Shown here in pieces: positions 17,505 to 39,111 of a stretch of 39,123 nt of DNA. Positions within the stretch are counted from its first letter, which is position 1; every line of letters begins with the position of its first letter. The position numbers were made by a program, and so were the translations under genes. The notes below the pieces were generated by a model, which did not search any database, had not been told where the DNA came from, and saw only the letters and a list, made by a program, of their open reading frames with translations. The stretch comes from Bacillota bacterium (GTDB lineage Bacteria; Bacillota; Dethiobacteria; DTU022). Where the stretch lies: the NCBI GenBank assembly GCA_011389985.1, contig JAABTH010000018.1, positions 1 to 39,123 on the forward strand, written 5' to 3'.

Positions 17505-17540
17505 AATTACCGCCTCCAGCCTCATATAAAACTGTTGTTA

Positions 17541-20463: not shown

Positions 20464-20466
20464 CCA

Positions 20467-20826: not shown

Positions 20827-20841
20827 AGGTGAACCTCCGAA

Positions 20842-22374: not shown

Positions 22375-22403
22375 TATTATGGAAGCAGTAGGAGGTGAAT
22401 GCT

Positions 22404-22916
22404 GTGCTTGAACGAATGAAAGGCGACCTGATGGGTTCAATCTTTATCTTTATCCTCCTGATGGCTTTCTGGTTGCTTATATCGGCCAGCACACATTGGC
22501 AGCACATTTTAGTTGGAGCTATATTCAGCTTAATCCTAACTGTATTTTGGAGCAATTTAAATATTTCAGCTGTAAACAGAACAAATTTTACAATTCTGCA
22601 GGCATTTTTGCTGATTAAATATTTTGTACATCTGGTTATTGAAATAGTTATTGCTAATATAAGTGTTGCTATGATTGTATTAAACCCCCGGTTGCCAATT
22701 TCTCCTGGTATCGTAATTATGCGGTGCGACCTGGAACGCAGCTTATTACGGGTACTCTATGTTAACTCAATTACACTAACCCCAGGAACCATTACAGTTG
22801 AATTAGAAGACAACTTATTGATTGTTCATGCATTAACGGAAGATGTTGCACATGGAGTTGAAGACTGGGCGCTTAACCGCAGGTTAATGGAAATGGAGGC
22901 TCTGTACAAAAAATGA
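22404..22916 (+). CDS. mrpE: MrpE/MnhE subunit
   Basis: 170 residues. Seen: two or three N-terminal membrane helices followed by the cytoplasmic MnhE domain with VNSITLTPGTITVELEDN and a C-terminal helix. An upstream in-frame GTG at 22395 lies inside the AGGAGGTG ribosome site; GTG 22404, 6 nt after it, is the likely start. The stop overlaps the mrpF ATG (ATGA). MrpE is a small membrane subunit needed for full Mrp activity. Confidence 0.88.
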   Translation: MLERMKGDLMGSIFIFILLMAFWLLISASTHWQHILVGAIFSLILTVFWSNLNISAVNRTNFTILQAFLLIKYFVHLVIEIVIANISVAMIVLNPRLPISPGIVIMRCDLERSLLRVLYVNSITLTPGTITVELEDNLLIVHALTEDVAHGVEDWALNRRLMEMEALYKK

Positions 22917-23179
22917 TTAATACAGTGCTTTATGTTATTGTAATCGGATTAATCTTGTTTTCTCTATTGGCTATAGTCAGAGCTTACAGTGGCCCAACAG
23001 TATTAGACCGGGTGGTGGCTATGAACGTAATAACCACCAATGTGGTTATCGTAATTTTAATTTTTGCCTACCTGGACAGTAGTTTCTACTACATAGACGT
23101 CGCATTTGTTTTTGTCCTGGGCGCTTTTATCGGAACTCTTTGTATCCTGAAATTACTGCGTGAAGGGCATATTATATAG
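22913..23179 (+). CDS. mrpF: MrpF/MnhF subunit
   Basis: 88 residues, three membrane helices. Seen: RAYSGPTVLDRVVAMNVITT, the conserved MnhF segment with its buried Asp-Arg, then YLDSSFYYIDVAFVFVLGAFIGT. Start overlaps the mrpE stop by 4 nt, so translation is coupled. Length and motifs are standard for the family. Confidence 0.9.
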   Translation: MINTVLYVIVIGLILFSLLAIVRAYSGPTVLDRVVAMNVITTNVVIVILIFAYLDSSFYYIDVAFVFVLGAFIGTLCILKLLREGHII

Positions 23180-23190
23180 GGGTGGTTAAT

Positions 23191-23574
23191 ATGGTACTCC
23201 ATTACATTGCTGCTTTTTTTCTGATTGGTGGATTTTTCTTTCTGATTGTCGGTGTACTCGGCCTTTTAAGACTACCGGACGTTTACACACGAATGCATGC
23301 TCTGGGTAAGTGCGACACCCTGGGAACAGGAATGGTTTTAGTCGGGTTAATGTTTTTAATACATGATGTTACCAATATCACCAAGCTGGTTTTGATCATG
23401 GTGATGATAGTAACAATCAACCCTGTAATTACTCATCTTATAGCTAAAACAGCCTATAACAGGGGCACACCAATGGCAGAGGGCAGTTTTTTAATTAATG
23501 ATTACGTGGCTTCTCAGCGCCGCCGAAGAAAGCGCATGACAGAAAGCAGCTTATCGCAGGAGGGAGAGGAATAA
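23191..23574 (+). CDS. mrpG: MrpG/MnhG subunit
   Basis: 127 residues, three membrane helices and a basic, hydrophilic C-terminal tail (RRRRKRM). Seen: GVLGLLRLPDVYTRMHALGKCDTLG, in shorter pieces the diagnostic LPDVYTRMHA of MnhG. A GTG at 23182 is in frame, but it falls inside AGGGGTGG; ATG 23191, five nucleotides further, is preferred. Completes the E-F-G block in canonical order. Confidence 0.9.
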   Translation: MVLHYIAAFFLIGGFFFLIVGVLGLLRLPDVYTRMHALGKCDTLGTGMVLVGLMFLIHDVTNITKLVLIMVMIVTINPVITHLIAKTAYNRGTPMAEGSFLINDYVASQRRRRKRMTESSLSQEGEE

Positions 23575-23577
23575 GCC

Positions 23578-23817
23578 GTGAATGACTTCTTAATTGTTCT
23601 TATGCTTTTAATCCTTATTGTAACAACTCTTTCTATTTTTGTTTTCAATGATTTACTTTACATAGTAATCATTTTTGGAGCGTACAGTATGGTTATGTCG
23701 CTAATCTGGCAACAGCTTAACTCACCCGACCTTGCTATAACTGAAGCAGCTGTCGGTATAGGCATGACGGTTTTAATGGTAACGGTGGTCACAAAAGTTG
23801 GGAGGCGTCCACAGTGA
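23578..23817 (+). CDS. DUF4040 (MbhD-like) subunit, split from MrpA
   Basis: 79 residues from GTG, two or three membrane helices. Seen: NDLLYIVIIFGAYSMVMSL and SPDLAITEAAVGIGMTVL, matching the DUF4040 domain found in the C-terminal part of MrpA and in MbhD of membrane-bound hydrogenases. The motif DLAITEAAVG carries the buried Glu typical of this NuoJ-like element. Overlaps the next gene in GTGA. Existing as a separate gene, as in archaeal Mbh operons, rather than fused to MrpA. Confidence 0.85.
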   Translation: MNDFLIVLMLLILIVTTLSIFVFNDLLYIVIIFGAYSMVMSLIWQQLNSPDLAITEAAVGIGMTVLMVTVVTKVGRRPQ

Positions 23818-24152
23818 TCAATATCAGAAGAATTTTATTCTATGGAATGTCGGTTACTCTTGTTGCCTTAATATCTTTTATGCTTATGCTGGCAGTAACC
23901 GAAATGCCCGTTTATGGTAAGCTCGATAACCCTACCAATAATATAGTTTATGAACGTTACGTCACCAAGGGTGTTGAGGAAAGCGGGGGAACTAACCTTG
24001 TTGCGAACATTTTGCTTGACTACAGAGGCTATGACACGCTTATGGAATCAACCGTACTTTTTGCAACAGTAATTGCAATTATGCTCGTTTGGGGAACAAG
24101 AAGTGTTGCCAAGGAAGAAGAACAGGAAGAAAATACTGAAGAACACAATTAA
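23814..24152 (+). CDS. MbhE-like subunit (MrpA C-terminal/MrpB N-terminal type)
   Basis: 112 residues from GTG, overlapping the DUF4040 gene by 4 nt. Seen: an N-terminal membrane helix, an extracytoplasmic loop with GGTNLVANILLDYRGYDTL, a second helix MESTVLFATVIAIMLVWG, then an acidic tail rich in Glu. The GGTNxVxxILxDxRGxDT motif is diagnostic for the segment that follows DUF4040 in MrpA and for MbhE. With the previous gene and the downstream antiporters it replaces a conventional one-piece MrpA. Confidence 0.83.
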   Translation: MINIRRILFYGMSVTLVALISFMLMLAVTEMPVYGKLDNPTNNIVYERYVTKGVEESGGTNLVANILLDYRGYDTLMESTVLFATVIAIMLVWGTRSVAKEEEQEENTEEHN

Positions 24153-24192
24153 TGCAGCTTGTTATTATCTGTTGGGAGAGGACGAAAGCTAA

Positions 24193-25674
24193 ATGAACTA
24201 CATACTATACCTGCCTCTTTTTATGATAATCTTTCCCATAGTCGGCGCACTAATAACCGGAATAGCATCTGAAGACAATGATCGCCTGCGTAACCCCCTG
24301 GCTGTAATCGTAAGCATAATCAGCGCAGCTGCAATGATTCTCATTCTCCATGAATATGTTCAAAACGGTGGCTGGGAACTCTTATTACACCAAATTGCCC
24401 CTGGACTGGAAATTAAATTTCGGGTTGATCCGCTTGCAGCTCTTTTTGGAGGCACTGCGGCAATCTTATGGTCTTTTTCGGTCCTTTATTCAACCGGATA
24501 TATGGCTCACGAACATAAGCGCAGGCGCTATTTTATTTTTTACCTGCTTTCACTGGGAATGACAATGGGAATAGCATTATCAGCAAACCTGCTTACCCTA
24601 TATATTTTCTATGAGTTTTTAACTATTTTTACTTACCCCTTAGTAATACATGAAGAAAATGACGAAGCGAAAAAAGCCGGTATTAAATATATTATCTATA
24701 GTTTTTTCGGAGCTGGTTTAATTCTGATCGGGCTAATTATAACCTATGGCAATCTTGGAACTTTAGAATTTGTTAGAGGCGGAATAGTAGACCTGTCAAC
24801 AGGTTCACTACTGCTCTGGCAAATTACTTTTATCTGCTTCATCTTAGGATTTGGCGTAAAAGCAGCAGTAATGCCTCTGCATGCATGGCTGCCTGCGGCT
24901 ATGGCAGCTCCTACTCCGGTAAGCGCCTTGTTACATGCTGTTGCTGTTGTAAAGTCGGGAGTATTCGGTATCTTACGGTCAATGTATTCAATTTTTGGCA
25001 TTACAGCATTAATCGGGTTGCAGATGGGTTATTTTGTTGCTGCCCTTGTTTCGATAACAATTCTTGTCGCTTCAATTATTGCCATGCAGCAGGATGTTCT
25101 AAAAAGAAGACTGGCTTTCTCAACAATTAGCCAGCTTGGTTACATTACACTGGGGGCCGGTCTTTTTAATGTAATTGGCCTTACTGGCGGTCTGCTTCAC
25201 ATTATTAATCATGCTCTTTTAAAAATCACTCTCTTTTTCTGCGCCGGCGCTATTATTACGGTAACTGGCAAAAAGAAAATTAGTGAACTTAACGGATTGG
25301 GCAAGAGAATGCCTTTAACGATGGTTGCTTTCACTATAGCCTCTATCGGTATGATTGGCATACCTCCCGTTAACGGTTTCATTTCAAAATGGTACCTGAT
25401 ACAGGGCAGCCTCGAAAGTGGTGCCTGGATTTTCATTGTAGTGCTAATCGGCAGCGCCCTTTTGAATGCTGCTTATTTTTTACCGATAGTCATTTCCGCC
25501 TTTTTTAAAAAAGGTGAATTTTCTTCTGTTGAGGGCCCTGAAGCGCCACTCTCCATGCTATTGCCAATCTTGATTCTGGTAGCAGGATGCCTGATTGTTG
25601 GCACAAACCTTCAATTAACAGTACCATATTTGGAAAACATCGCTAACTACCTGTTCTATTCAGGAGGTAATTAA
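24193..25674 (+). CDS. MrpD/NuoN-like antiporter subunit (antiporter G)
   Basis: 493 residues. E141 in YIFYEFLTI, K223 in FGVKAAVMPLHAWLPAAM, K254 in AVVKSGVFG, and GFISKWYL give the full set of antiporter residues. Closest relative in the window is antiporter B (16032-17504), by the shared APTPVSALLHAVA and TGKKxxxxLNGxGKxMPLTM stretches. GGGAGAGG precedes the ATG. It follows the DUF4040 and MbhE-like genes, where a redox module would lie in a hydrogenase operon, but none is present. Confidence 0.85.
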   Translation: MNYILYLPLFMIIFPIVGALITGIASEDNDRLRNPLAVIVSIISAAAMILILHEYVQNGGWELLLHQIAPGLEIKFRVDPLAALFGGTAAILWSFSVLYSTGYMAHEHKRRRYFIFYLLSLGMTMGIALSANLLTLYIFYEFLTIFTYPLVIHEENDEAKKAGIKYIIYSFFGAGLILIGLIITYGNLGTLEFVRGGIVDLSTGSLLLWQITFICFILGFGVKAAVMPLHAWLPAAMAAPTPVSALLHAVAVVKSGVFGILRSMYSIFGITALIGLQMGYFVAALVSITILVASIIAMQQDVLKRRLAFSTISQLGYITLGAGLFNVIGLTGGLLHIINHALLKITLFFCAGAIITVTGKKKISELNGLGKRMPLTMVAFTIASIGMIGIPPVNGFISKWYLIQGSLESGAWIFIVVLIGSALLNAAYFLPIVISAFFKKGEFSSVEGPEAPLSMLLPILILVAGCLIVGTNLQLTVPYLENIANYLFYSGGN

Positions 25675-25676
25675 AT

Positions 25677-27674
25677 ATGCCCCAGGAACTAGTTTCTTAC
25701 CTTCCACTTATTGCTGTAACAATGCCTTTAATAGCTTTTATATTAGTCACCTGTTTACCTAACCTGGCCTGGTGGCGCTCTGCATGGTCAATCATCGGCA
25801 GTCTTGGCACTCTTGTTGCAGTTGGAATGATGTTTCCGGCCCTTTCCGAAGGGAATATCATTGTCTTCCAGATGCCCATGATAGTTACTCCCCTTGATTT
25901 AACTTTTCGAGTAGACTTCCTCAGTTTCTATATTGCTGCTATTACTTCCTTCATCTGGTTGATGGCTACTATCTTTGCTATTGACTATATGAATCATGAG
26001 CATAATCAGGGCCGGTTTTTTGCCTTTTTCCTTCTGACACTTTCCGGAACTGTAGGGGTTCCGCTGGCCGGAGATCTTCTATCGCTGCTGCTCTTTTTTG
26101 AATTAATGTCGCTGGCATCATACGTTTTAGTAATTCATACCCAGACTGATGAAGCCTACAGCGCTGGCAACATATACCTTTATCTTGGTGTTTTTGGAGG
26201 CATGTGCCTGCTAACCGGTATCGGCTTAATATATTTCAGCTGCGGGTCGCTTGAAATAACCCAGCAGTTATGCATGGTAGAAGGTGTTAATAATTATCTG
26301 CTCGCTGCAGGCTTGCTCATGTTTATCGGTTTTGGGATTAAGGCAGGTATAGTTCCCCTGCATATTTGGCTGCCAAAAGCCCACCCCGTTGCTCCTGCGC
26401 CAGCAAGCGCTCTTCTTTCAGGGATTATGATTAAAGCAGGAGCATACGGCATTATCAGGACAGTTACAATGATTTATACTCCTGACAGCAGTTTCATGAG
26501 CGGTGAATATCTGGCTGCCGGGGTAAAAAACCTCTGGCACCTCGTTTCAAATGCAGGTTATGCTATCATCTGGATTGGAATAGTCACCATGCTTTTTGGT
26601 GTATGCCTGGCCTTGCTGCAGGATAACATAAAAAAACTGCTTGCCTGCAGCAGTATCAGTCAGATTGGTTATATCATAATGGGTATCGGTGTAGCGGCAT
26701 ATCTTGGTTATGACGGAGCTATGGGGCTGGCCGGTTCGACCTATCACATTTTGAACCATGCCTTTTTCAAATCTACTTTGTTTCTTGCTGCAGGCGCTAT
26801 TGTCTATTTAACTGGTGAGCTTAACTTGAGCAAACTGGGCGATCTCAGACATAAACTGCCCTTTACAACGATCGTTGTACTTATAGCCTCGCTGGGTATT
26901 GTCGGACTGCCTCTTTTCAACGGCTATGCCAGCAAAACGCTACTACACCACGCAATTGTCGAAGCTTATGAACATCACCATGTTTATTCTTTATATATCG
27001 CTGAGAAATTATTTACCATAACAAGCGCAGGTACTGTCTGTTACTTCCTGAAATTTTTATTCTTTGCATTCTGGCGCCCGGCGCCTGTTGAAATGCCTGA
27101 AATCAAACAAGAACCTTTGATGATGAAAATTGGGCTTGGTGTACTGGCAGCCTGCATGCTTTTTATTGGATTCTCGCCAAATCTTATTTTAACTAAATTT
27201 GTCGTCCCTACATTAAGTACTTTTACACTTGATACCTACTCCGTTAACTATCTTATGAAGATTAGTTTCTGGCACCTTGGGGACATTTGGGCAGTTGCTA
27301 TTGCACTTGTTCTCGGTGGGTTATTCTTTTATATTGCCCAACGCACTAACGCTTATCGCCTGAAAATACCTTTTTGGCTGGGCGCCGATTTTATCGGTTC
27401 GCTAGCCGGCAGGTTAGCAATCATAGTTTGGATTATTATTTCTTTTCCCTTTACACTTTTACAAAACTTAATGAGAACAACGTCACAGTATATTTATAAA
27501 AAAGTATTTACCCTGCTACAAAGCGTAGACTACAGACCAGGACAGAAAACAATTTTCCGATCTATCAACATCAGTAATATTGATTTTGATATGATTTTAG
27601 TCCTTCTCTCTTTTAGTATTATTCTGATTGTCGTCTTCTATATCCGCTTCGGAATTGATGTTTTCAGATTGTAA
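25677..27674 (+). CDS. Long NuoL/MrpA-type proton-conducting subunit (antiporter H)
   Basis: 665 residues, last gene of the plus cassette, AGGAGG nine nucleotides before ATG. E142 (LLFFELMSL), K222 (FGIKAGIVPLHIWLPKAHP), K253 (MIKAGAYG) and GYASKTLLHHAIVEAYEHHH. C-terminal extension of about 200 residues with extra helices ends in SINISNIDFDM plus a final membrane helix, as in antiporter A. Together with the DUF4040 and MbhE-like proteins it may do the work of a split MrpA. It is the third copy of this long type in the locus. Membrane-embedded cation/proton translocation is the likely role; the ion is unknown. Confidence 0.85.
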   Translation: MPQELVSYLPLIAVTMPLIAFILVTCLPNLAWWRSAWSIIGSLGTLVAVGMMFPALSEGNIIVFQMPMIVTPLDLTFRVDFLSFYIAAITSFIWLMATIFAIDYMNHEHNQGRFFAFFLLTLSGTVGVPLAGDLLSLLLFFELMSLASYVLVIHTQTDEAYSAGNIYLYLGVFGGMCLLTGIGLIYFSCGSLEITQQLCMVEGVNNYLLAAGLLMFIGFGIKAGIVPLHIWLPKAHPVAPAPASALLSGIMIKAGAYGIIRTVTMIYTPDSSFMSGEYLAAGVKNLWHLVSNAGYAIIWIGIVTMLFGVCLALLQDNIKKLLACSSISQIGYIIMGIGVAAYLGYDGAMGLAGSTYHILNHAFFKSTLFLAAGAIVYLTGELNLSKLGDLRHKLPFTTIVVLIASLGIVGLPLFNGYASKTLLHHAIVEAYEHHHVYSLYIAEKLFTITSAGTVCYFLKFLFFAFWRPAPVEMPEIKQEPLMMKIGLGVLAACMLFIGFSPNLILTKFVVPTLSTFTLDTYSVNYLMKISFWHLGDIWAVAIALVLGGLFFYIAQRTNAYRLKIPFWLGADFIGSLAGRLAIIVWIIISFPFTLLQNLMRTTSQYIYKKVFTLLQSVDYRPGQKTIFRSINISNIDFDMILVLLSFSIILIVVFYIRFGIDVFRL

Positions 27675-27775: not shown

Positions 27776-28753
27776 CTACTTTTTTTCAGCCATTGGCACT
27801 GCAACAGCTTTGATTTTACCAAACTGTGGGCGCGAAGTAGCTTTTTCAATCATAGGCACAAAGGCATTCATGATCAGAATAGCAAATGCCACCCCTTCAG
27901 TAATCATAAAACCAACCCTGAAGACAACAACAAGTACACCAATTGCTACACCAAATATAATTTTGCCTTTATCTGTCATAGGGCTAGTAACCCAGTCTGT
28001 TGCCATAAAGAAAGCACCGATCATAATGCCACCTGTCACCAGGTGGTAAACCGGGTTTTCACCTGTTATTAATGTTAAAATAATCATTGTTGCAAGGATT
28101 GATACAGGAATCCTCCAACCAATGTGTTTACGATAAAACAGGTATGCCGCCCCTAATAGAAGGGCAAATGGCGATACTTCAGCCAGAGCACCGGCAGGAA
28201 AGGCAAAAAATAGCTCGCTTATTGGAGGCATTTCCAAACCAGCTCTTAACATTGCCAGCGGAGTTGCCTGAGTGATGGTGTCAAGCGGCCCAAGGTGAAT
28301 TGCCAGTGGCTGGAACCACTGGTTTACATAGGCATAAAGAGGCGCCAGGATAACCAGGGCAACACGTCCAAATAGAGCCGGGTTGAAACGGTTCCAACCC
28401 AAACCTCCGGCAAGCTCTTTTGCTATACCAACTGCAATAAAAGTAGCCAGGGCTGCTTTATACCAGGGTGTTGTCGCCTGAAACAGCATGGCAACAAATA
28501 ACCCTGTCAGCAAAGCGCTCCAGTCATGCAACTGAGGCTTCTTGTGCATTAACTTCTTAAAGAGAATCTCAGTTAATACCGCTGTAACAAGACATACAGC
28601 TATTGTTAAAACAGCATAAAAGCGAAAAAAGTATATGGACACCAGCGTGATAGGCATTAGCGCAATAAAGACGTCCCGCATAGCGTTTGATACTGTGTCC
28701 TGACTCTTAATATGAGGAGACGATGATACTACGAACTTATGGGTATCGTTCAC
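27776..28753 (-). CDS. rnfD: RnfD, membrane flavoprotein subunit of the Rnf/NQR family
   Basis: 325 residues, normal RnfD length, about nine membrane helices. Seen: SSSPHIKSQDTVSNAMRDV at the N-terminus, WNRFNPALFGR, and DTITQATPLAML, where T164 in the S/T-x-A-T motif is the expected site of covalently bound FMN. In Rnf complexes RnfD passes electrons through the membrane flavins. GTG start with AGGAGG 9 nt upstream. It is the last gene of the operon; rnfG, E, A and B do not follow as they usually do. So it is an Rnf subunit taken out of its complex, or it works with subunits encoded elsewhere. Confidence 0.93.
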   Translation of the reverse strand: MNDTHKFVVSSSPHIKSQDTVSNAMRDVFIALMPITLVSIYFFRFYAVLTIAVCLVTAVLTEILFKKLMHKKPQLHDWSALLTGLFVAMLFQATTPWYKAALATFIAVGIAKELAGGLGWNRFNPALFGRVALVILAPLYAYVNQWFQPLAIHLGPLDTITQATPLAMLRAGLEMPPISELFFAFPAGALAEVSPFALLLGAAYLFYRKHIGWRIPVSILATMIILTLITGENPVYHLVTGGIMIGAFFMATDWVTSPMTDKGKIIFGVAIGVLVVVFRVGFMITEGVAFAILIMNAFVPMIEKATSRPQFGKIKAVAVPMAEKK

Positions 28754-28786
28754 TACTTATAACCTCCTTTTCCCCAATTTGTTGGA

Positions 28787-30103
28787 TTACCTTTTGCTCA
28801 GCAGTTCTCGGATAAGTGGTTTGGTACGCTGGACCAGTTGAGTAATCGGCCTTTTCGAAGGGCATACATACGCGCAAATACCGCACTCAATACAATCCAT
28901 TGTATTCCATTCCAAAGCATCCTCAATCATACCTGCTTCACAATAGATACTGATCTGGTTCGGATAAAGCAACATCGGACAGTGCTCGACACACTTGCAG
29001 CAGCGAACACAGTCTGAGTATTCCATATCCTCGAGAGCCATATCCGGAGGAAGAACAACAACACCCGTTGTGCCTTTAACAACTGGAACATTTAGTGTTT
29101 CCTGAGCTCTACCGGTCATCGGCCCACCGACGACAACTTTAGCCGGTTCTTCGACAATGCCGCCACACTCATCAATAATGTGAGAGAGTGGGGTGCCGAT
29201 TTTAACCATCAGATTTTGCGGATCCTTAAGGTTTTGTCCGGTAACTGCTACCACACGCTCGATAAGAGGCTTGTTATACTTAACTGCCTCATAAATGGCG
29301 ACACAGGTGCCGACATTCTGGATAAGCGCTCCTATATCAAATGGTAACCCGCCCGATGGGATTTCGCGGTCGAGTGCCGCTTTAACGAGATGCTTTTCCG
29401 AACCCTGGGGATACTTTGTAGGCATCCGCAGCAAAACGATATTCGGATCATCATTTTCCTGACGAACAGCTTCAATTGCATCATCTTTATTATCCTCGAT
29501 GCAGAGATATGCTTCTTCTACAGAGAGCATTTTCATCAGTAATTTAATACCCTGCAGTAGTTCTGCAGGCTTTTCAAGCATCAACCTGTGATCGCAGGTA
29601 AGATAAGGTTCACACTCACAACCGTTAATGATCAGAGCGTCAACTTTTTTATCAGGTGGAGGACTCAGTTTGATTGCAGTAGGAAAGGCTGCGCCACCCA
29701 TACCTACAATCCCAGCTTCTTTAACAGCATTAATGATATCCTCTTTGCTAACCTTGTCAAGATCGTTGTTTGCCAGCTCAAGCTTATCCTGGTTTTTGTC
29801 AACAGCAATAACGATGCTATCTATCATCTGCCCGGTAATAAAAGGCCGGGGTTCAATTGCTGTTACTGTACCGGAAAGGCTGGCGTGGACTGGAGCACTG
29901 ACAAACTTATCGGTTGCACCGATTTTCTGACCTGCCTTTACCTTATCACCCACATTTACCAGCGGTTCATTAGGCGCGCCGGTATGCTGCAATAAAGGGA
30001 TGATAATCTCTTCAGGCAACGATGCTTCTTTAATTGCTTTATGCTCTGTAAAGCTTTTATAGTGGGGAACATGGATCCCACCAAAAAACTGTTTTACTTC
30101 CAC
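28787..30103 (-). CDS. rnfC: RnfC, NADH/FMN/iron-sulfur subunit
   Basis: 438 residues, normal length. Seen in order: N-terminal barrel-like domain (GGIHVPHYK, GDKVKAGQKIG), Rossmann-like NAD/FMN domain with GIVGMGGAAFPTAIKL (about residues 132-147), INGCECEPYLTCDHRLM, a SLBB-like segment, and two 4Fe-4S motifs, C365-C368-C371-C375 and C404-C407-C410-C414. All cofactor residues look intact. Cytoplasmic, no signal. RnfC exchanges electrons with NAD(H). GTG start with GGGAGGTG upstream; it begins 18 nt after fdhB, so it is co-transcribed with formate dehydrogenase, which is unusual. Confidence 0.95.
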   Translation of the reverse strand: MEVKQFFGGIHVPHYKSFTEHKAIKEASLPEEIIIPLLQHTGAPNEPLVNVGDKVKAGQKIGATDKFVSAPVHASLSGTVTAIEPRPFITGQMIDSIVIAVDKNQDKLELANNDLDKVSKEDIINAVKEAGIVGMGGAAFPTAIKLSPPPDKKVDALIINGCECEPYLTCDHRLMLEKPAELLQGIKLLMKMLSVEEAYLCIEDNKDDAIEAVRQENDDPNIVLLRMPTKYPQGSEKHLVKAALDREIPSGGLPFDIGALIQNVGTCVAIYEAVKYNKPLIERVVAVTGQNLKDPQNLMVKIGTPLSHIIDECGGIVEEPAKVVVGGPMTGRAQETLNVPVVKGTTGVVVLPPDMALEDMEYSDCVRCCKCVEHCPMLLYPNQISIYCEAGMIEDALEWNTMDCIECGICAYVCPSKRPITQLVQRTKPLIRELLSKR

Positions 30104-30121
30104 TTGACTTCACCTCCCGGT

Positions 30122-30907
30122 TTATTTGGATTTAGCTTTATTTTCCTCTACACGCTTGCTTTGCGCACGATTAGACCACAGGCCTAATGCTACAGCGATG
30201 ACTACAAATACGCGCAGGGGGGCATAGATTGTGTTCCAAAAACGAGTCTGTATCGGCACTTGGGGATCGGCCGGGAAACCATACTTTTCGGGCTTGTCGG
30301 CCAAAACATAGAGCATACCCGTACCGCCAACCTCGTCAAGACCATACATTCTAGCATTTACTTTCCCAGCTGCCTGAAGCGCTTCAACTCTAACTCTTGC
30401 TTTACTGATTAACTCCCGGCTATCGCCAAAAGTTATTGAACCTGTGGGACAGGCGTTAGCGCAGGCAGGTTTGAGGCCGTTTTCAAGTCGATCAAGACAA
30501 AAAGTACATTTTCGTGCTTTATTCGCCAAACGATCAAAGCCAATCACATGAAATGGACAGGCAGCGACACAATAGTTACAGCCTATACATTTTAATTCAT
30601 CAACCATTACCGTATCATATTCGGTCCGGTAAATTGCGCCTGCCGGACAAGCCATCATACAAGATGCTTCAGCACAATGCATGCAGCCCTGTTTTGCCAT
30701 TAACCATTCAACGCTACCACTTTCGGTTTCCTGCTCCCGAAACATTATACGCATCCAGGTTGTTGATGATAGGGCTGGCGGGTTTTCATATGAGCCTGTA
30801 AAGGTCGTTTCTTCAGCCGGATTTTGGTTCCATTGCTTGCAGGCAACCTGGCAACCCCGACAACCAATACACTTGGAGGCATCGATTAAACAGATAGGTT
30901 TAGCCAT
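30122..30907 (-). CDS. fdhB: Formate dehydrogenase iron-sulfur subunit with C-terminal anchor
   Basis: 261 residues. Four 4Fe-4S clusters are supported by CIGCRGCQVACKQW, CMHCAEASCMMACP, CIGCNYCVAACPFHV and CTFC with CANACPTGS, the FdnH/DmsB pattern. A single membrane helix near residues 228-245 (APLRVFVVIAVALGLW) and a basic tail follow. No signal peptide, so it is probably exported bound to FdhA by the Tat route. GGAGGGC lies 8 nt before the ATG, which directly follows the fdhA stop. No cytochrome b (FdnI) gene follows. The lone helix may anchor the pair to the membrane and place its clusters next to RnfD (inference). Confidence 0.93.
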   Translation of the reverse strand: MAKPICLIDASKCIGCRGCQVACKQWNQNPAEETTFTGSYENPPALSSTTWMRIMFREQETESGSVEWLMAKQGCMHCAEASCMMACPAGAIYRTEYDTVMVDELKCIGCNYCVAACPFHVIGFDRLANKARKCTFCLDRLENGLKPACANACPTGSITFGDSRELISKARVRVEALQAAGKVNARMYGLDEVGGTGMLYVLADKPEKYGFPADPQVPIQTRFWNTIYAPLRVFVVIAVALGLWSNRAQSKRVEENKAKSK

Positions 30908-33900
30908 TTATACTGCCCTCCTTACGTTGCACAGGAATGCTTTATACTCAGGAATCGTTGTATTCGCATCCCCTACTGATGCAGTGAGATCGTTTGTTAC
31001 GGACCCTGTGCTCATTCCCTTGAAGCCCCAGTGCCAGGGCATTCCCACTACGTGTCTCGCCTCACCATCAATCACCATCGGTTTAAAGCGCTTAGTAATA
31101 CAGGCTTTTGCTTCAATGCCGCTCTGATCACCATCTTTAAACAGACGCTTGCTCTCAATTATTACCTTATCGCCATTATTAACACCAATCTCATCAGCCA
31201 GCTCTTCGCTTATCTCAATAAAGAGTTCCGGCATCAGTTCGTTCAACCAGGGCAGGTTACGGGTAACAATACCCGTTTGGAAGTGTTCAACTATGCGGTA
31301 AGTGGTAATAATATAAGGATATCTTTCCCGTTCTTCAGCGGTTTCTACCGTATGGTCTGCATAGAAGCGCTGGCTAACCGGATTATACGTTGCCTGTGGA
31401 TAAAGCAGGTTCGGCACAAGACTTTCTGCCGGTTCATAGTGAGCCGGCAGCGGCCCGTCTTTAAGAGCGCTGTGCGAATAAAGCCTGCCAACACCCTCAG
31501 GAAGCATGATAAACGGATTTTCCGTAGACTGTTCCAAGGTCCAGCTTCCGGGAATATCGGGGATGTCGTTACCTACCCACTTTTGCTGGGCTTCATCCCA
31601 CCAGACAACGGGAGCATCCGGGTTCCAGGGTTTTCCTTCAAGGTCGGCCGAAGCGCGATTATAGACAATGCGCCGGTTAAGTGGCCAAGCAAAAGACCAG
31701 CCAAGGTTAAAACCAAGACCTTCTTTTTCTTTAACACGGCTCTTTGTTGCCGGCTTTTCATAATTATTGTAATAACCACTATAGAGCCAGTTGCCGCAAG
31801 CTGTAGAACCGTCAGCCTGTAAACCGACGAAGTTTGTTACAAGTGATCCGTCGGTTGTCCGGTAACCGTTGATATCTTTACATACTTTAACGATATCAAC
31901 CTCACCATCAGGTCCGTCGTAATCCCAGAACATCTTGGTGATAGCATCTGGAACAACTCCACCTTCAGCCGAGTAAATTGATTGAATTCGTTTGAAGAGC
32001 TCATTTACAATCCAGAGGTCAGACTTGGAATCTCCCGGAGGCTTCTGCGCTTGCCAGCCCCACTGAATCCAGCGACCACTATTAGCCTTACTGCCTTCCT
32101 TTTCGTACCCTATTGCTCCGGGCAGGATAAATACCTCGGTGTCGATTTCTGCCGGGTTCATACCGGGTCCATGCCAGAAGGAAGCGGTTTCATTTTCAAA
32201 AACATCGACAGAAACGAGCCATTTAAGGTTCTTCTGGTAATTTCGTTTGTTAGCCGCACTTGGGCCCGATACAGCAGGGTTGTCCGCCCAACAAAACATA
32301 CCTTCAACCTTGCCTTCACCCATATCTTTGTACTGCGCAATATGCGAATGGTCAAGTCCATCGAGCTTAGGCATCCACTGGTAACCGAATTCATTGGCGG
32401 CAGTAGCTTCATCGCCATAGAATGCTTTAAGCAAGCTGACAAGGTACTTGGGTTTGTTGGTCCACCAGCCTGCAGCCGGTGTTTCTTTAACGAGGTAGTC
32501 TTCCAGGGTTGGGTGTGCAGCCTGTTGCGGGGTTCCCATATAACCGGGCAAGATATGGTACAGTATAGCCATATCTGTTGAACCCTGCACGTTTGACTGA
32601 CCGCGCTGAGCGTTTACACCGCCACCGGCAATACCCATGTTCCCTAAAAGAAGCTGAACAATGGCACAAGATCGGACATTCTGTGCCCCGTGAGTAAACT
32701 GGGTAATTCCCATCGCATAGAGAAGGTTACCTGCTTTACCGGGTTCACCGGTTGAACTGAATAAATCGTACGATTCTGTCAAAGCAGCAGGATCTGCACC
32801 TGTAATTTTGCTGACATTATCAATGGTGTACATCCTGTAGTGGTTTTTCATTAACTGCAATACACAGTTCGGATCTTCCATGGCTGGATCTTTCAAAGCA
32901 TTACCATCTGCATCGCGCTGATATTGCCAGCTTTCAGTGTTATATTTCGTAGCGTTTCGAACAGGATCGTCCTCAGCACCGTTGAAGAGTCCAGTAGTTT
33001 CATCAAAACTGAAGTTTTCATTAATCAGGTAAGATGCATTGGTGTAGTTTGCAACATATTCCTGATGGTAACGTTCATTTTCAAAAATATAGTTAATTAA
33101 ACCACCCAGGTAAGCAATGTTTGTGCCGGGGCGAATACTTACATATACATCTGCCACGGCAGCTGTCCTTGAAATCCTGGGGTCAACGGCAATTAGTTTT
33201 GCCCCCTTGGTTTCACGGGCTTTTTCAATCCATTTCATTGAAATCGGGTGGTTTTCAGCAGTATTACCACCGATATTCATGAATACATCACTGTGCTGAT
33301 AATCAGTCCAGTGGTTGGTCATACAACCTCTTCCGAACGTGGCGCCGAGACCGGCGACCGTAACGGAGTGTCAGAGACGGGCGCAGTGATCAATGTTGAT
33401 CACGCCCATACCCCTGGCCATTTTGTGGAAAAGGTAGTTTTCTTCATCGGTGCAAAATGCGCTGCCGAGCCAGGATATTGCCTCGGTTCGGTTAACAGTT
33501 ACCTGCTGACCCCCGACATCCACTGTTTCAACTAAGGTCCTGTCACGTGTATCCTTCACCCGCTGGGCAATCATCTCTAACACGTCATCCCACTCTTTTT
33601 CTTCGTAACTGCTTGCACCAGGCGCCCGGTAGAGTGGTTTAGTCAGACGCTTCGGATTAGGTACAGGCTTACCTTTTTCTTCAAACATGTAAGAAATATT
33701 AAAGAGAGAACTACCCTTGCTGCATAGGGTTCCTTCATTGATCGGATGACCGGGATCACCCTCAGCATTAACAACTAATCCATCCCGGACACTGCAAATA
33801 ACACCGCAGCCGACTCCGCAAAAAGTACATGTGGTTGGATATTCTTTGGTGTGCTTGATGCGCAGCGGTTCAGCGGCAGACGCAGATGCCTTGTTCAGGC

Positions 33901-33973
33901 CAACACCAGCCAACGTTGCCGTAGCGGCAGCCGCACCGGTAAGCTTTAAAAAGCTGCGTCGCGTTAACTGCAT
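30908..33973 (-). CDS. fdhA: Selenocysteine formate dehydrogenase, catalytic subunit (UGA read through)
   Basis: One gene of 1021 residues, interrupted by an in-frame TGA at 33373-33371 that codes Sec201. The flanks CARL-U-HSVTVAGL and TFGRG-MTNHW match selenoprotein formate dehydrogenases (FdnG is 1015 residues, Sec196), and a SECIS hairpin follows. Other features: Tat signal LTRRSFLKLTG, 4Fe-4S ligands C49, C52, C56 and C84, His202 after Sec, and R457 in RGQSNVQG, the expected active-site Arg. It holds a bis-MGD molybdenum or tungsten centre and interconverts formate and CO2 on the outer face. A GTG at 33985 is in frame, but AGGAGGTG overlaps it, so ATG 33973 is taken. Automatic calls would split it into 204 and 804 residue pieces. 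Confidence 0.95.
33341..33359 (-). promoter_or_regulatory. Bacterial SECIS element in fdhA
   Basis: Eleven nucleotides after the UGA the mRNA reads GG-U-CGCC-GGUCUC-GGCG-CC. This forms a two-plus-four base-pair stem with a single bulged U and a GGUC loop. Bulged U, loop G-U and spacing of 11 nt equal those of the E. coli fdhF/fdnG SECIS bound by SelB. It lies wholly within the coding sequence. Confidence 0.9.
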
Positions 33974-33988
33974 AAGTAAATCCACCTC

Positions 33989-34900
33989 CTAGTCTTGTCT
34001 ATCAGATAACTCGTTTTCATTGACCCATTCTAAACCTGAGCCCGGTGAAAACCCTTCCTTCCGGGCCAATATATCATAGCCCAGGGAAGCAAGGTTGTGG
34101 ATGGTCAAAACGATATTACCATCCGTGTTAAAATTTCTTGCATCAATGATCTTGTAGTAACGGCGGCATGAAAGGCAGTAATTTACCCGACAATTATCAT
34201 TGCCTTCAATGGTAAAGTAGCCTAACTCTTCCCTATCTTCATTACTGCAATACGGACATTTAACACGACTGTGTAGCCAACGGCTACCACAGAGCCAGCA
34301 TTCCAGAACCTTTGCCCCATCTTCAGGACATAGCATACCAAAATGCGGCTGTTCACCACACAACGGGCAATCCCCCCCTTCGTAGAGGTCTGTCCGTAAC
34401 CCCATTGGAATTGACTCAAACTGCCGCCTGTATATGGAAGACAATACAATTGAAAAAAGAAACGTCGCCATGTCGTTTTCAATGGCCGCTTCTTTTTTCA
34501 ATAAATCACGAAACTCTTTGATTTTTTCCAGTGAGAGCACTTTGCCTTCTCCGGAAAGAAAAATATCTGTTCTATTTAAAAGATCGCTCATAATCTTTTT
34601 AAGGGCCGGGTTAGCCTTTGTTGCTTCTGAACATACCGTTTTAAATAGTTCACTAAATTGCTTCGCGTTTAGATCCGGACGAAGCTTAAGACTTTGATCC
34701 TGCTTCATCATTTCAGTCGATTCTTCAGCAGGCGGACTTAAATGATCAATGGGAGGAATCTGGGTATGATGCTGATCGTCATATTTACTGATAGCATCAA
34801 ATACAGATTTTATAAACCCGGCTCCTTCATCAAAGTTATCATATAGCTTCTTGCATCGTTCAATTTCATTCTCATAGCCGGTTATCCAGAGACTATCCAA
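33989..34900 (-). CDS. fdhE: FdhE-type formate dehydrogenase accessory protein
   Basis: 303 residues, cytoplasmic. Seen: a helical N-terminal half, then a zinc- or iron-binding region with four CxxC pairs (CPLCGE, CWLCGS, CPYCSN, CLSCRR) in about 180-250, the rubredoxin-like pattern of FdhE. FdhE binds the catalytic subunit of Tat-exported formate dehydrogenases and helps its assembly before export. It lies 15 nt upstream of fdhA, first in the operon. GAGGAGTG precedes the ATG. Other CxxC accessory proteins exist, but the gene context makes FdhE firm. Confidence 0.9.
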   Translation of the reverse strand: MDSLWITGYENEIERCKKLYDNFDEGAGFIKSVFDAISKYDDQHHTQIPPIDHLSPPAEESTEMMKQDQSLKLRPDLNAKQFSELFKTVCSEATKANPALKKIMSDLLNRTDIFLSGEGKVLSLEKIKEFRDLLKKEAAIENDMATFLFSIVLSSIYRRQFESIPMGLRTDLYEGGDCPLCGEQPHFGMLCPEDGAKVLECWLCGSRWLHSRVKCPYCSNEDREELGYFTIEGNDNCRVNYCLSCRRYYKIIDARNFNTDGNIVLTIHNLASLGYDILARKEGFSPGSGLEWVNENELSDRQD

Positions 34901-35132: not shown

Positions 35133-35161
35133 ATTATACCCATAACAGATTTTTATGTCAA
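35133..35161 (-). promoter_or_regulatory. Consensus sigma-A promoter of the Fdh-Rnf operon
   Basis: TTGACA (35161-35156), spacer of 17 nt, TATAAT (35138-35133): both hexamers match the consensus in full. A tandem 15-bp repeat abuts the -35 on its upstream side. Confidence 0.85.
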
Positions 35162-35324: not shown

Positions 35325-36056
35325 TTAAACGCTGCCTTTTTTGTTACTGGCATAGTTGTAAATCAGGGCACCAATACCTGCGACTGCAGCAATGCCACCT
35401 AAGGGTGATATTAAATATTTTAATACCCGTTTGCCCATCGGCACTTCAGTTTCTGCCGGCAGGTTATATTTATCCGGGGTGTACTGCAGAACCAGCAGCA
35501 CTCTTAAACCGCCAAATTCATCGACCCCGTAGAGGTTTGCCTCTTCATAGCCCTGAGACTTTAGCAATTGGACCCGCTGGTTGCCGGCTGCAATCATGGC
35601 CGGCCTGCTGCCATATTTAATCGCCTGCGGTGAGCAGACAGAATAGCAGAAAGGCTCCAACCCGTTTTCAACCCGTTTATCACAGAGGGTGCATTTTTCC
35701 ATGATTCCCTTGGTGCGGTCAAAGGTGATCACTCCATACGGGCAGTTTGCAACACAGTAATTACAGGAAATACAGATCCTTTCGTCATAAACCGTCAGAC
35801 CATCTTCGTTTTTATGCATTGCCCCGGTCGGGCAGGAGATTACGCAGAGCGCCTCCGTACAGTGCATGCAGGCTTTTTTATTAAATACCTCGATCGAATC
35901 AGGATAGGCACCATGCTCGTAGGTATCAATCTGGGTTCTGTAAATATCCTCGGTCAAACTATAGATCTGCTTGCAGACCAGGGTGCAGGCGTCACAGTTT
36001 ATGCAAAGCGACTGGTCTACCAGCATTGCATGATCAGCGATTACCATCTTATTCAT
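35325..36056 (-). CDS. Four-cluster ferredoxin subunit of a molybdo-enzyme, membrane-anchored
   Basis: 243 residues (240 if ATG 36047 is used, which has AGGAGG at better spacing than 36056). Sixteen Cys in four motifs: CINCDACTLVCKQ, CMHCTEALCVISCP, CISCNYCVANCPYGV, CTLC with CYSVCSPQ. One C-terminal membrane helix (about 217-235, GGIAAVAGIGALIYNYA) and a short basic tail. It resembles the B subunit of thiosulfate, polysulfide or tetrathionate reductases and FdhB next door, including the YGVDEFGG segment. It transfers electrons between the catalytic subunit and the membrane. No NrfD or cytochrome b partner gene lies after it. Confidence 0.87.
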   Translation of the reverse strand: MNKMVIADHAMLVDQSLCINCDACTLVCKQIYSLTEDIYRTQIDTYEHGAYPDSIEVFNKKACMHCTEALCVISCPTGAMHKNEDGLTVYDERICISCNYCVANCPYGVITFDRTKGIMEKCTLCDKRVENGLEPFCYSVCSPQAIKYGSRPAMIAAGNQRVQLLKSQGYEEANLYGVDEFGGLRVLLVLQYTPDKYNLPAETEVPMGKRVLKYLISPLGGIAAVAGIGALIYNYASNKKGSV

Positions 36057-36100: not shown

Positions 36101-38452
36101 TTAAGCTTTATAGATTTTCACAGCATGATCCTGCATTCCAGTGCCCATACCGGGGTCATTGAGCCTTCTCATTTCATCAAAGTTCATAGACATGATCAGG
36201 TTACCATCATTGGCCCCACGGCCAAAGGCTTTAGTCATGTAAGAGCTGTAACGCCCAAAGCCATGATAGATCATCACGGTGTCGGGACGAATCCCTTCAA
36301 TGAGCTTGGCCTTGAGTTTAATCTTCCTTTCACGGTCCATCCAGGCGGCACTGCGGGATTCAACATAAACTTCATCGCCTTCACTGATACCCATTTCCTC
36401 TGCCGTAGCCTTATTCAACACTGCAGAGTTTTCCGGATAACCGGCCAGGGCCAGGACATTGTTCTGGGTCTGGACCATCTTGTGCATTGGCGCCCTGCTG
36501 ATAACCATGTAGAAAGGATATTCTTCATCCGTTTCTTCGCGGCGCGGTTTCCAGGTAGGCAGGGGGTCATAGCCATGCTCTTCAAAAAGGGTCGAGTAGA
36601 ACTCGATTTTGCCGCTGGGGGTCTTAAACTTTTCCGTTGGGACAAGCTCACGGTCGGCCGGATCTTCCGGTTCCCATACCCCGGTTGCGCTGTTGTTAAG
36701 CTCAGTCCAGCTGCTACCTAAAGCTTGCAACTGCATGTTTCTTTCCTTGCCTCCACTGACATTACCGGAACCGCCTTCAGAAGTATCCTTGAAGTATTCT
36801 CCGTAACCCATCGCTTCAGCCAGGTTTATGATTGCTCCACCAAAACCCTTGGTTTCTTCATAGAGCGGCGAAACAACCTGCTGGCGCAGGTGTATTTGCG
36901 GATAAAGGCTGTGATATTTACGCGACCCCATACCGGAAAATTCAAACCAGTGCGGCTCAGGCAGTACTATATCGGAAAGCCAGGCCATCTCGGACGGGTA
37001 GATTTCAAAGGTCAGGATAAAGTCCAACTTTTTAAAGGCCTCTACCATGGTCAGGTGATCGGGAAAGGAAAGCGGGTTATATTTTCTAACCAGGGCAGTC
37101 TTTACCGGGTAAGGATCTTCATTTAAGATACCGTAAGGCAAAGTAGCAAAGTTACCATTCACAAAGCCCACGAAAGGTCCCCGCTCTTCCCAGTTATCAA
37201 TCCTTTCCCGCCTTCTTTCCGGCATCTGCTCCTTAAGCTCTTCCGGAATTGGGAAAAGAGAATCAAATTTTGGCATTTTTGGATTACGCGGCAGGATCAT
37301 CCCGCCCGGCCGATCAATCGAACCAACCAGGGCATCCAGGGTAACCTGGGCCTGGGCCAAACTGCTGCTGTTTACATAGTTAGGTCCGGCAGCATCCCGC
37401 TTATGGTGGGCAAGGTGTGCCGGTTGGTTGGCCGGATCGGCAAATTCACGGGCAATCTCAAGAATGACGTCTGCGGTTATACCAGGGGTATCAATCAGCT
37501 CAGCGGCCCATTCAGGCGTATAACGATTAGAAATTATGTGACTGCGCAGTTCTTCAATACCCTCAGTATAGTTTTCAACAAATTCGCGGTTATATAGGTT
37601 CTCTGTCAAGATAACATGAATCATGGCCAGGGCAAAAGCCAAATCGTAACCGGGCCTGATCGGCAGCCACTTGTGGGCCCTGGCAGCTGTCTTGGAACGG
37701 TAGGGATCAAGAGACACCAGTTTCGCCCCTCTTTGCAGGGCCTTGGAAAGGCCCTGAAGGTGAGGGTTCTTGGCCTTGCCCATGCCATCAAAGCCCATGG
37801 TCAAAATATACTTGGAATTTTCCAGGTCGTGGGTCCAGGGGCGGCCACTGCCGGTTACCATGCCTGCCCAGGCTGCCTGTTGAGTTGTAAAACAGGTACT
37901 TTGATGGGCAATATGGTTCGGGGTACCGATCACATCGCGCAGGCGGTTAAGATAGTCATGACTGCGGGACATTATCAACATACTTTCCGGGCCATACTGG
38001 CCAATTGATTCCTTAAAACGAGAAGCTGCTTCTTCAATCGCTTCCTCCCAGCTGATTCGCTCAAAACCGGGATCTTCATTGATTCCTTTATTCGGGTTAG
38101 TCCGCCGAAGCGGGTACTTAAGGCGATCCGGATCATAAAGGGTTCTAATTGAGTTGTAGCCCTTTACGCAGAGCCTTCCCCCTTCTTCCGGGTTATAAGG
38201 GTTGCCTGCTGCGAAGTCGTACGGGTTCCCTTCTACGTGTACCAGGCGGCTATTTTTGACATATGCTTTCATTCCGCAGCCAGCGCTACATACACTGCAA
38301 AAAGTGTAACGAACAGCTTCGGCATCTTCCACTATTTCTTCAGCGGCTTCCGCAAAGCGCGGTATGGGCATTCCTGCCCCGACCGCGGCCCCGGTAGCCA
38401 GCGCCGCTTTTAGAAAGGTGCGGCGTTTCATGTTTAAACCATCGGATTTCAT
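36101..38452 (-). CDS. Tat-exported CISM molybdopterin oxidoreductase, Cys type
   Basis: 783 residues. Tat signal KRRTFLKAALATG at the N-terminus, 4Fe-4S ligands C52, C55, C59 and C95, and the probable Mo ligand C187 in HQSTCFTTQQ, the position seen in PsrA/PhsA-type enzymes. C-terminal MGD-binding domain with VNKATAEEMGISEGDEV-like text (ATAEEMGISEGDEVYVES, shown shortened) and a final HAVKIYKA. Candidates are polysulfide, thiosulfate, tetrathionate or arsenate reductase, or another respiratory member. The sequence does not settle the substrate. ATGA overlap with the torD-like gene upstream. Codon use looks more GC-rich than in the Mrp region. Confidence 0.88.
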   Translation of the reverse strand: MKSDGLNMKRRTFLKAALATGAAVGAGMPIPRFAEAAEEIVEDAEAVRYTFCSVCSAGCGMKAYVKNSRLVHVEGNPYDFAAGNPYNPEEGGRLCVKGYNSIRTLYDPDRLKYPLRRTNPNKGINEDPGFERISWEEAIEEAASRFKESIGQYGPESMLIMSRSHDYLNRLRDVIGTPNHIAHQSTCFTTQQAAWAGMVTGSGRPWTHDLENSKYILTMGFDGMGKAKNPHLQGLSKALQRGAKLVSLDPYRSKTAARAHKWLPIRPGYDLAFALAMIHVILTENLYNREFVENYTEGIEELRSHIISNRYTPEWAAELIDTPGITADVILEIAREFADPANQPAHLAHHKRDAAGPNYVNSSSLAQAQVTLDALVGSIDRPGGMILPRNPKMPKFDSLFPIPEELKEQMPERRRERIDNWEERGPFVGFVNGNFATLPYGILNEDPYPVKTALVRKYNPLSFPDHLTMVEAFKKLDFILTFEIYPSEMAWLSDIVLPEPHWFEFSGMGSRKYHSLYPQIHLRQQVVSPLYEETKGFGGAIINLAEAMGYGEYFKDTSEGGSGNVSGGKERNMQLQALGSSWTELNNSATGVWEPEDPADRELVPTEKFKTPSGKIEFYSTLFEEHGYDPLPTWKPRREETDEEYPFYMVISRAPMHKMVQTQNNVLALAGYPENSAVLNKATAEEMGISEGDEVYVESRSAAWMDRERKIKLKAKLIEGIRPDTVMIYHGFGRYSSYMTKAFGRGANDGNLIMSMNFDEMRRLNDPGMGTGMQDHAVKIYKA

Positions 38453-39111
38453 GACCGATCATCACTCCTCTGATCTGATTCTGTTAAAGCTTCATCATCA
38501 AGCAATGCAAACAAGCTTTTTTCCTGCTCCATAAAGTTAAGGCCGCATACAGCCAAATCCTTAAAAAAACAGGCCAGTTCATTTTCCTGTAAATCATTAA
38601 ATACCTGCGGCAGCCAGCGGTAGATATGCTCTTCATAAAATGACTTTTGCTCCGCTACCTTATCGCCGCATTCTATCAAGTGAGCCATGAAGGCCAGTTC
38701 TACAGAAGCATGGTCTTCCGGGTGCAAATCGGGTTTTTCCAGGACCAGGCCATTTTCGCGGTAAACAGCTTTTACTTCCAGCCAGGGCTCACCCATTAAG
38801 AGCTGCTCACTGCCCCGATAGACCGATTCGTAAGGCCTGACTCCGCCAGCCATTATAAATAGCCGGGCATACTCGGTTCTCATGACCCGGTCTGCATCAT
38901 TTTTTGCAGCCCACTTAGCAATAATATCCTGCAGGTCACGCCCGATATCGGCGTATTCACCGCTGACCGAGGCCAGGTAAGCAGCATAATGCTCAAGATC
39001 TTCTGCCCTGGTCTGATCGGTAAAAAGCCTCGAAAAGAATGTATACAAACATACCCTGTCAAGTTGTAATTGATTTGCTGTACTCATCTGGTTTATCAAC
39101 ATTGCCTCCAT
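38449..39111 (-). CDS. TorD/DmsD-family molybdo-enzyme chaperone
   Basis: 220 residues from ATG 39111, or 216 from TTG 39099, which has GGAGG 5 nt upstream and may be the true start. Helical protein with EYARLFIMAGGVRPYESVY and KPDLHPEDHASVELAFMAHL, the two family motifs. Such chaperones bind the Tat signal and aid cofactor insertion of a specific partner, here most likely the CISM enzyme whose ATG overlaps this stop codon. Complete within the window; only 12 nt of upstream DNA are present, so the promoter is not visible. Confidence 0.87.
   Translation of the reverse strand: MEAMLINQMSTANQLQLDRVCLYTFFSRLFTDQTRAEDLEHYAAYLASVSGEYADIGRDLQDIIAKWAAKNDADRVMRTEYARLFIMAGGVRPYESVYRGSEQLLMGEPWLEVKAVYRENGLVLEKPDLHPEDHASVELAFMAHLIECGDKVAEQKSFYEEHIYRWLPQVFNDLQENELACFFKDLAVCGLNFMEQEKSLFALLDDEALTESDQRSDDRS

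Follow-up and report, generated by a model that had tools for sequence, protein, structure and literature searches.

The window analysed here is a 39,123 nucleotide (nt) stretch of DNA from a bacterium of the class Dethiobacteria (Bacillota; GenBank assembly GCA_011389985.1, contig JAABTH010000018.1), and it carries the genes of an exported formate dehydrogenase (FDH) followed by an orphan pair of Rnf genes, rnfC and rnfD. In our assessment FdhA, FdhB, RnfD and RnfC probably constitute one membrane complex, through which electrons would be exchanged between formate/CO2 at the outer face and cytoplasmic NAD(H). What is new here is a conserved set of putatively RnfCD-anchored exported oxidoreductases that is broader than FDH alone.

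The fdh-rnfCD unit and its cofactor sites

The genes fdhE-fdhA(Sec)-fdhB-rnfC-rnfD (Sec, selenocysteine) form a single tight minus-strand unit, with intergenic gaps of 15, 0, 18 and 33 nt when fdhA is taken to start at 33973; the fdhA open reading frame (ORF) opens at a GTG at 33985, and the likelier start is the ATG at 33973, after AGGAGGTG. No rnfG, rnfE, rnfA or rnfB gene and no cytochrome b gene lies between or beside the genes of the unit. It ends in a hairpin of -26.1 kcal/mol (z -4.97; 0/200 shuffles equally good), which is absent from the output of an automatic consensus terminator scan. An earlier note on this DNA had described the five-gene unit with these gaps, its strong terminator and the lack of RnfG, E, A, B and of an FdnI-type cytochrome b, and all of this was recovered. 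The features of the unit are the following:

35133..35161, minus strand: promoter-like site TTGACA-17-TATAAT upstream of fdhE, sigma-70-like, 12/12 consensus positions
33989..34900, minus strand: fdhE, FDH accessory protein, weak TIGR01562 match
30908..33973, minus strand: fdhA, FDH-N alpha subunit with a twin-arginine signal
33371..33373, minus strand: in-frame TGA in fdhA, read as selenocysteine; fdhA is otherwise open through it
30122..30907, minus strand: fdhB, Fe-S subunit with a single C-terminal hydrophobic helix, TIYAPLRVFVVIAVALGLW
28787..30103, minus strand: rnfC (orphan type), 438 aa, with FMN/NADH domain, SLBB and two 4Fe-4S motifs
27776..28753, minus strand: rnfD (orphan type), 325 aa membrane flavoprotein; T164 is the FMN-binding Thr, N124 and D253 the riboflavin-site residues
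27695..27730, minus strand: terminator-like hairpin with T-run, after rnfD

RnfC and RnfD pass the curated cut-offs of their families (TIGR01945, 534.7 bits against 246; TIGR01946, 268.6 against 207), while the NqrA and NqrB models score them far under their own cut-offs, and the closest solved chains are in entries 7zc6, 9eri and 8ahx. In A. woodii RnfD, T156 was assigned by structure to FMN and N123 and D249 to riboflavin, the latter two having also been tested by mutation (PMC11889175); in our alignment these residues correspond to T164, N124 and D253 of the window RnfD. The riboflavin-site Asn and Asp are kept in all 77 orphan RnfDs that were compared, and the FMN residue is Thr in 74 and Ser in three. 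The double CxxCxxCxxxC motif is present in 65 of 66 orphan RnfCs. A Trp adjoins the riboflavin-site Asp in every orphan row, at a position held by Met in 81% of canonical rows. The completeness of RnfC and RnfD, cofactor motifs included, had been proposed beforehand and holds.

On the formate dehydrogenase side, FdhA scores 1131.8 bits with TIGR01553 (cut-off 814), with an additional TAT_signal match, and the closest solved chain for FdhB is E. coli FdnH (1kqf_B, E 5.6e-63). Reading of the TGA is in line with the tRNA-Sec gene of the genome (72.5 bits) and with the Cys found at this position in relatives L132 and L145; a hairpin resembling a selenocysteine insertion sequence 3' of the TGA is not distinguishing (z -1.14). 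FdhB has one hydrophobic C-terminal helix, as had been predicted. Measured by Kyte-Doolittle hydropathy over the last 60 residues, such a helix reaches the threshold of 1.6 in 93 of 102 Fe-S subunit rows, the class and named sets of which overlap, and 51 of the 57 distinct FdhB/HybA-like proteins have a proline-x-arginine motif where the helix begins (the six exceptions are L154, L157, L158, L160, L162 and L163).

Conservation and exchange of partners

The window RnfD was searched over 97 genomes of the class, in which the score separates orphan-like from canonical matches, and 48 regions around high-scoring matches were annotated by BLAST against the proteins of the window genome and the L060 hydrogenase. 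Orphan-type rnfD was found in 47 places in 42 other genomes, six being cut by contig ends; four RnfD rows lie outside the orphan arrangement (L082, L083 and two in L085). All 41 assessable places adjoin an exported-oxidoreductase gene or the gene of its Fe-S subunit. The partner is FDH in 29, with the FDH genes upstream of rnfCD as in the window (16 places), in the order rnfC-rnfD-fdhA-fdhB (11) or with fdhA before rnfCD and the Fe-S gene after (2). Elsewhere it is a PhsA-type enzyme (5 places) or a [NiFe] hydrogenase (2, confirmed by Pfam), at four places, among them L069 close to the end of its contig, only an FdhB/HybA-like Fe-S gene is seen, and in one, the second copy of L066, fdhA stands without recognised fdhB or rnfC. 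Conservation of fdhAB beside rnfCD, which the earlier note had left to be looked for, thus extends to many relatives; its FDH partner stands, and its restriction to FDH does not.

As controls, the next 20 RnfD matches in score order were taken. Every one of them belongs to an rnfC-D-(G)-E-A-B operon (one is cut after E, and in another G was not recognised), and none lies beside Fdh, Phs or hydrogenase genes. The recurrence of the same gene order across many genera argues against chance, and a fortuitous adjacency was ruled out by the contrast of 41/41 with 0/20.

In both hydrogenase loci, L055 (10140-13768) and L060 (5258-8912), the genes after rnfC-rnfD are a HybA-like Fe-S gene and those of the [NiFe] small and large subunits, an arrangement that likely represents an outer-face H2:NAD(H) version. 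At L082 (9019-12128) an orphan-clade rnfC-rnfD pair stands between an rnfG-like gene, which precedes it, and a UbiA-family gene; here a flavoprotein may be the partner of the same wire. A third RnfD-like type was noticed in the window's family (L186-L199), with ~40% identity, a match starting from near residue 20 and no RnfC beside it.

Quick trees without bootstrap were computed for RnfD (107 rows) and RnfC (93 rows). In the former, all 77 non-canonical RnfDs fall in one clade with a long stem and an SH-like approximate likelihood ratio (SH-aLRT) support of 100, joined on long branches by the canonical-labelled L082 and L085. FDH, Phs and hydrogenase partners occur intermingled within this clade, which indicates that they were swapped: at least 13 changes of the fdh label (including losses to cut or Fe-S-only places) and at least three of the phs label are forced. 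In the RnfC tree the canonical sequences form a clade (24 rows, support 99) with the orphan rows outside.

The distribution is not limited to the class. Nineteen orphan RnfDs were aligned and used to scan a collection of named genomes, and the best 80 of 316 loci were taken, 44 of which were judged to be the same contigs as in the class set. Among the 36 further loci of these best 80, 29 have an FDH (22) or PhsA-type (7) partner, three are cut and four are canonical. Hosts among the best 80 include Syntrophomonadaceae and other Bacillota metagenome-assembled genomes (MAGs), Halobacteroidaceae, Tindallia, Symbiobacterium and several Actinomycetota; MAG labels such as Bradymonadales or Dehalococcoidia may be binning errors. 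The isolate Anoxynatronum buryatiense strain Su22 has two loci, one of FDH type (L112) and one of Phs type (L138). Many of the host isolates seem, from our reading of their labels, to come from soda-lake sediment. In L138 and L164 (~17000-19900; Anoxynatronum and Tindallia) a separate two-ORF FdhA-like gene lies downstream of the Phs-type rnfCD operon, preceded by a weak RnfC-like match (21-22%).

Genomic context

The window is the entire contig C7 of a genome of 1.90 Mb (45 contigs, 96.8% complete). A separate and complete rnfCDGEAB operon is carried by contig C43; as it includes its own C and D, the orphan rnfCD appears as a spare pair and not as a piece of a split Rnf, contrary to a possibility that had been raised against the proposal. 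Together with the kept flavin residues, this operon also rules out a decayed Rnf operon as the origin of the pair. RnfA/E-type matches were obtained in 90 of the 97 class genomes; of those with orphan RnfCD, only G084 (90% complete) and G089 have no more than a weak RnfA/E match, too weak to use.

A membrane partner encoded elsewhere, another possible objection, was ruled out for the two usual families: PF01292 cytochrome b and PF03916 NrfD have no match in the whole window genome. Other anchor families, for example PF14589 and PF14358, lay outside this search. PF03916 is likewise matched in none of the 97 class genomes, and the control search retrieved it in 4 of 14 named genomes.

A second exported molybdoenzyme, of PhsA/PhsB/TorD type, is encoded upstream of the fdh-rnfCD unit:

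35325..36056, minus strand: PhsB-type Fe-S subunit with a C-terminal hydrophobic helix, neighbouring second exported molybdoenzyme
36101..38452, minus strand: PhsA-type (DMSO-reductase family) catalytic subunit with Tat signal
38449..39111, minus strand: TorD-type chaperone; the rnfC-rnfD pair upstream of torD lies on contig C27

This third rnfC-rnfD pair is at the end of contig C27 (L006, C27 17-2392), which overlaps the right end of the window by 8 nt at the torD-phsA-phsB junction. Once joined, the sequence is similar to that of this junction in relative L080, where the order is rnfC-rnfD-torD-phsA-phsB-[621]-fdhE-fdhA-fdhB-rnfC-rnfD. Given this overlap and resemblance, two exported molybdoenzymes are most likely encoded next to each other in this genome, and each would have an RnfCD pair to itself. 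Near the Phs-type rnfCD of C27 (L006 2838-11323), translations include rhodanese-domain, multi-CxxCH and cytochrome c maturation-like ORFs, which suggests sulfur metabolism.

On the other side of the unit, an mrp-type antiporter operon (20014-27674, plus strand; named from translations, with no family search) converges on rnfD, and convergent genes of similar size lie beside fdhAB-rnfCD in relatives L038-L044, L101 and L108. A functional link of an electrogenic antiporter to a potential-generating FDH is possible. The sole Rfam match of the window is a tRNA gene (9012-9083).

Proposed electron path, alternatives and significance

From the gene content, its conservation, the partner swapping, the kept cofactor residues and the lack of a match to the two anchor families, we infer a complex and an electron path, direction and energetics as follows. 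In the Rnf complex, electrons are described to run from RnfB through RnfA/E to RnfG at the outer face, then to the FMN and riboflavin of RnfD and from there to the clusters and FMN of RnfC and NAD+, the Na+ pumping of A. woodii being assigned to RnfA/E and RnfD being reported not to translocate Na+ (PMC11889175). With this path and a non-pumping RnfD, RnfD and RnfC represent the half of Rnf leading from the outer face to NAD+. The Tat-exported (twin-arginine translocation) FdhA, with Mo/W and Sec, would hand formate electrons to the 4Fe-4S clusters of FdhB, which, anchored by its single helix, would dock at the electron-delivery position of RnfG; the RnfG-RnfD contacts are described as only minor in the same source (PMC11889175). 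From FdhB, electrons would pass to the FMN that RnfD binds covalently at its outer side, to the riboflavin of RnfD, and through the two 4Fe-4S clusters and the FMN of RnfC to NAD+. An outer-face formate:NAD(H) oxidoreductase with FdhB in the place of RnfG is what the earlier note had proposed, and the proposal is supported, as the refuting conditions named there were looked for in the genome and in relatives and did not come up.

Such a complex would have no RnfA/E pump. Two electrons would cross the membrane per formate, so that formate oxidation would build membrane potential; in the reverse direction the potential would drive NADH-dependent formate production, a reverse electron transport of the kind syntrophs need. 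Taking E0' near -430 and -320 mV for the formate to NAD+ balance from two sources (PMC12835891, PMC12174285), we calculate that two electrons moving inward would balance ~110 mV under standard conditions, low formate or a higher potential favouring formate. The earlier suggestion of a possibly ion-coupled enzyme is retained as electrogenicity by electron movement and abandoned as ion pumping, given the assignment of Na+ transport to RnfA/E in A. woodii (PMC11889175).

Several observations weigh against this interpretation. Adjacency of fdhAB and rnfCD alone does not prove a complex. FdhB and FdhE, clear relatives of their families, remain below the equivalog cut-offs (TIGR01582, 231.6 against 334.7; TIGR01562, 55.0 against 187.7), and the C-terminal helix score is weak in nine of the 102 Fe-S subunit rows, three PhsB-like ones being <1. 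In L072, L074 and L075, whose surroundings are visible, an FdhB/HybA-like gene comes after rnfCD and the neighbourhood shows no catalytic subunit; the enzyme partner may be encoded elsewhere. Two members of the orphan RnfD clade, L082 and L085, have rnfG close by or lie within an rnf array, and the separation is less clear-cut in the RnfC tree than for RnfD, L085 being a distorting outlier. One UbiA-family gene in the window genome leaves a quinone possible. Finally, PF01292 occurs in 3 of 43 orphan-RnfCD genomes, against 12 of 54 without orphan RnfCD (Fisher p 0.049), a contrast largely explained by relatedness since family f1 has no PF01292.

Among other explanations, it seems unlikely that the proposed complex exists and RnfD additionally pumps Na+, making it a Na+-coupled formate:NAD+ oxidoreductase. 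Na+ pathways based on NqrB are argued in the NQR literature (PMC12174285) and the many soda-lake readings of host names would suit such an enzyme, but RnfD of A. woodii is described as serving electron transfer and nothing else, with RnfA/E as the pump (PMC11889175), and the unit lacks RnfA/E. The prospect that rnfCD is an alternative C/D set assembling with RnfGEAB of the complete operon, its adjacency to fdh being merely co-regulation, draws on the presence of that operon and on the wide occurrence of RnfA/E-type matches in the class. We hold it very unlikely: the operon already has its own C and D, the orphan RnfDs are a separate long-stemmed clade whose genes have Fdh, Phs or hydrogenase genes as neighbours in either order, and the Fe-S subunits have a membrane helix and no other membrane partner in the two families searched. 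To an equally low degree we credit an FdhAB that works on its own or through a carrier, soluble or extracellular, with RnfCD as an independent wire to another outside substrate; the rnfCD of L072, L074 and L075 with an Fe-S gene only and that of L082 with an RnfG-like gene speak for it, and the oxidoreductase or Fe-S gene at every assessable place, most Fe-S subunits having the C-terminal helix, against it. The NQR complex reduces quinone, and its NqrB is a homologue of RnfD. On this precedent and that of the UbiA-family prenyltransferase, a formate/NADH:quinone enzyme with electrons passing from FdhAB through RnfD to quinone, RnfC serving just as scaffold or NADH dehydrogenase, could be conceived, yet it appears the most improbable of these readings, as RnfC retains its FMN/NADH domain and both 4Fe-4S motifs and the genome has no match to PF02621, a futalosine-pathway family, and no cytochrome b/NrfD enzymes of the two families searched.

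The complex proposed here has partial counterparts. Like Rnf (RnfCDGEAB), it contains genuine RnfC and RnfD, in which the A. woodii flavin-site residues and the Fe-S motifs of RnfC are found, but it differs in lacking RnfG, E, A and B, in the separate clade and in its FdhAB, PhsAB or [NiFe] hydrogenase partner. FdhA and FdhB match FdnG and FdnH of FDH-N (E. coli FdnGHI), with a Tat signal and a beta-subunit C-terminal helix; the unit lacks the FdnI cytochrome b, and its electrons are predicted to go to NAD(H), not to quinone. The syntroph FDHs of T. phaeum and S. wolfei are also outer-face membrane enzymes, but have a gamma subunit, are assigned to the quinone pool and have no RnfCD (PMC6895022). 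In Nqr/Rnf-like two-subunit systems, an FMN-bind protein is associated with NqrB/RnfD fused to a NAD-binding domain, an RnfD-type membrane wire leading from NAD(P)H to an outer protein; the membrane part has no flavinylation site, and the fused NqrF-like domain and the flavoprotein set them apart (PMC8238504, PMC11334425). The MetVF-RnfC2 enzyme of A. woodii type similarly reuses an Rnf subunit as NADH module of another enzyme, with RnfC only, no RnfD and no membrane wire (PMC6895022, PMC12835891). RnfC, D and two G were reported in Ca. S. acetioxidans (PMC6295475).

The closest precedent is unFirm_1 (Frank et al. 2016), with RnfC and RnfD only, encoded beside formate dehydrogenase, and with RnfC and FDH detected in the metaproteome; it was interpreted as an apparently truncated Rnf, and the part of the paper at hand gives no mechanism or family-wide survey (PMC5080403). 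Neither formate dehydrogenase nor molybdopterin enzyme nor hydrogenase occurs as a term in the texts of PMC8238504 and PMC11334425, and 'formate dehydrogenase' does not occur in the 2025 RNF/NQR review (PMC12174285). In the openly available literature that was searched, we found no description of a general RnfCD-oxidoreductase class and no use of a name such as Fdh-Rnf. The earlier note knew of no described complex of this kind; this holds in that literature for the general class, and is corrected for the FDH-rnfCD adjacency, mentioned briefly in 2016 (PMC5080403).

The best reading of these genomes is that RnfCD would be an interchangeable electrogenic NAD(H) module taking the place of cytochrome b or NrfD, also for PhsA-type and [NiFe] enzymes. 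With less assurance than for the FDH complex itself, we lean towards a general plug-in module of Bacillota and Actinomycetota anaerobes, which would connect exported FDH, [NiFe] and PhsA-type enzymes to NAD(H) in a quinone-free, cytochrome-free and electrogenic manner, with no ion pump, and by which syntrophs would use the membrane potential to make formate or H2 outside from NADH.

Should this hold, the Rnf pump half and wire half would be separable and reusable, and 'truncated Rnf' readings of such genomes would need correcting. The claim is testable in an isolate, since A. buryatiense Su22 carries both FDH- and Phs-type versions. It has long been asked how cytochrome-free syntrophs and acetogens, with their very small energy yields, pass electrons from NADH on to formate or H2; outer-face formate and H2 enzymes wired to NAD(H) would, if confirmed, provide a direct, potential-driven answer.

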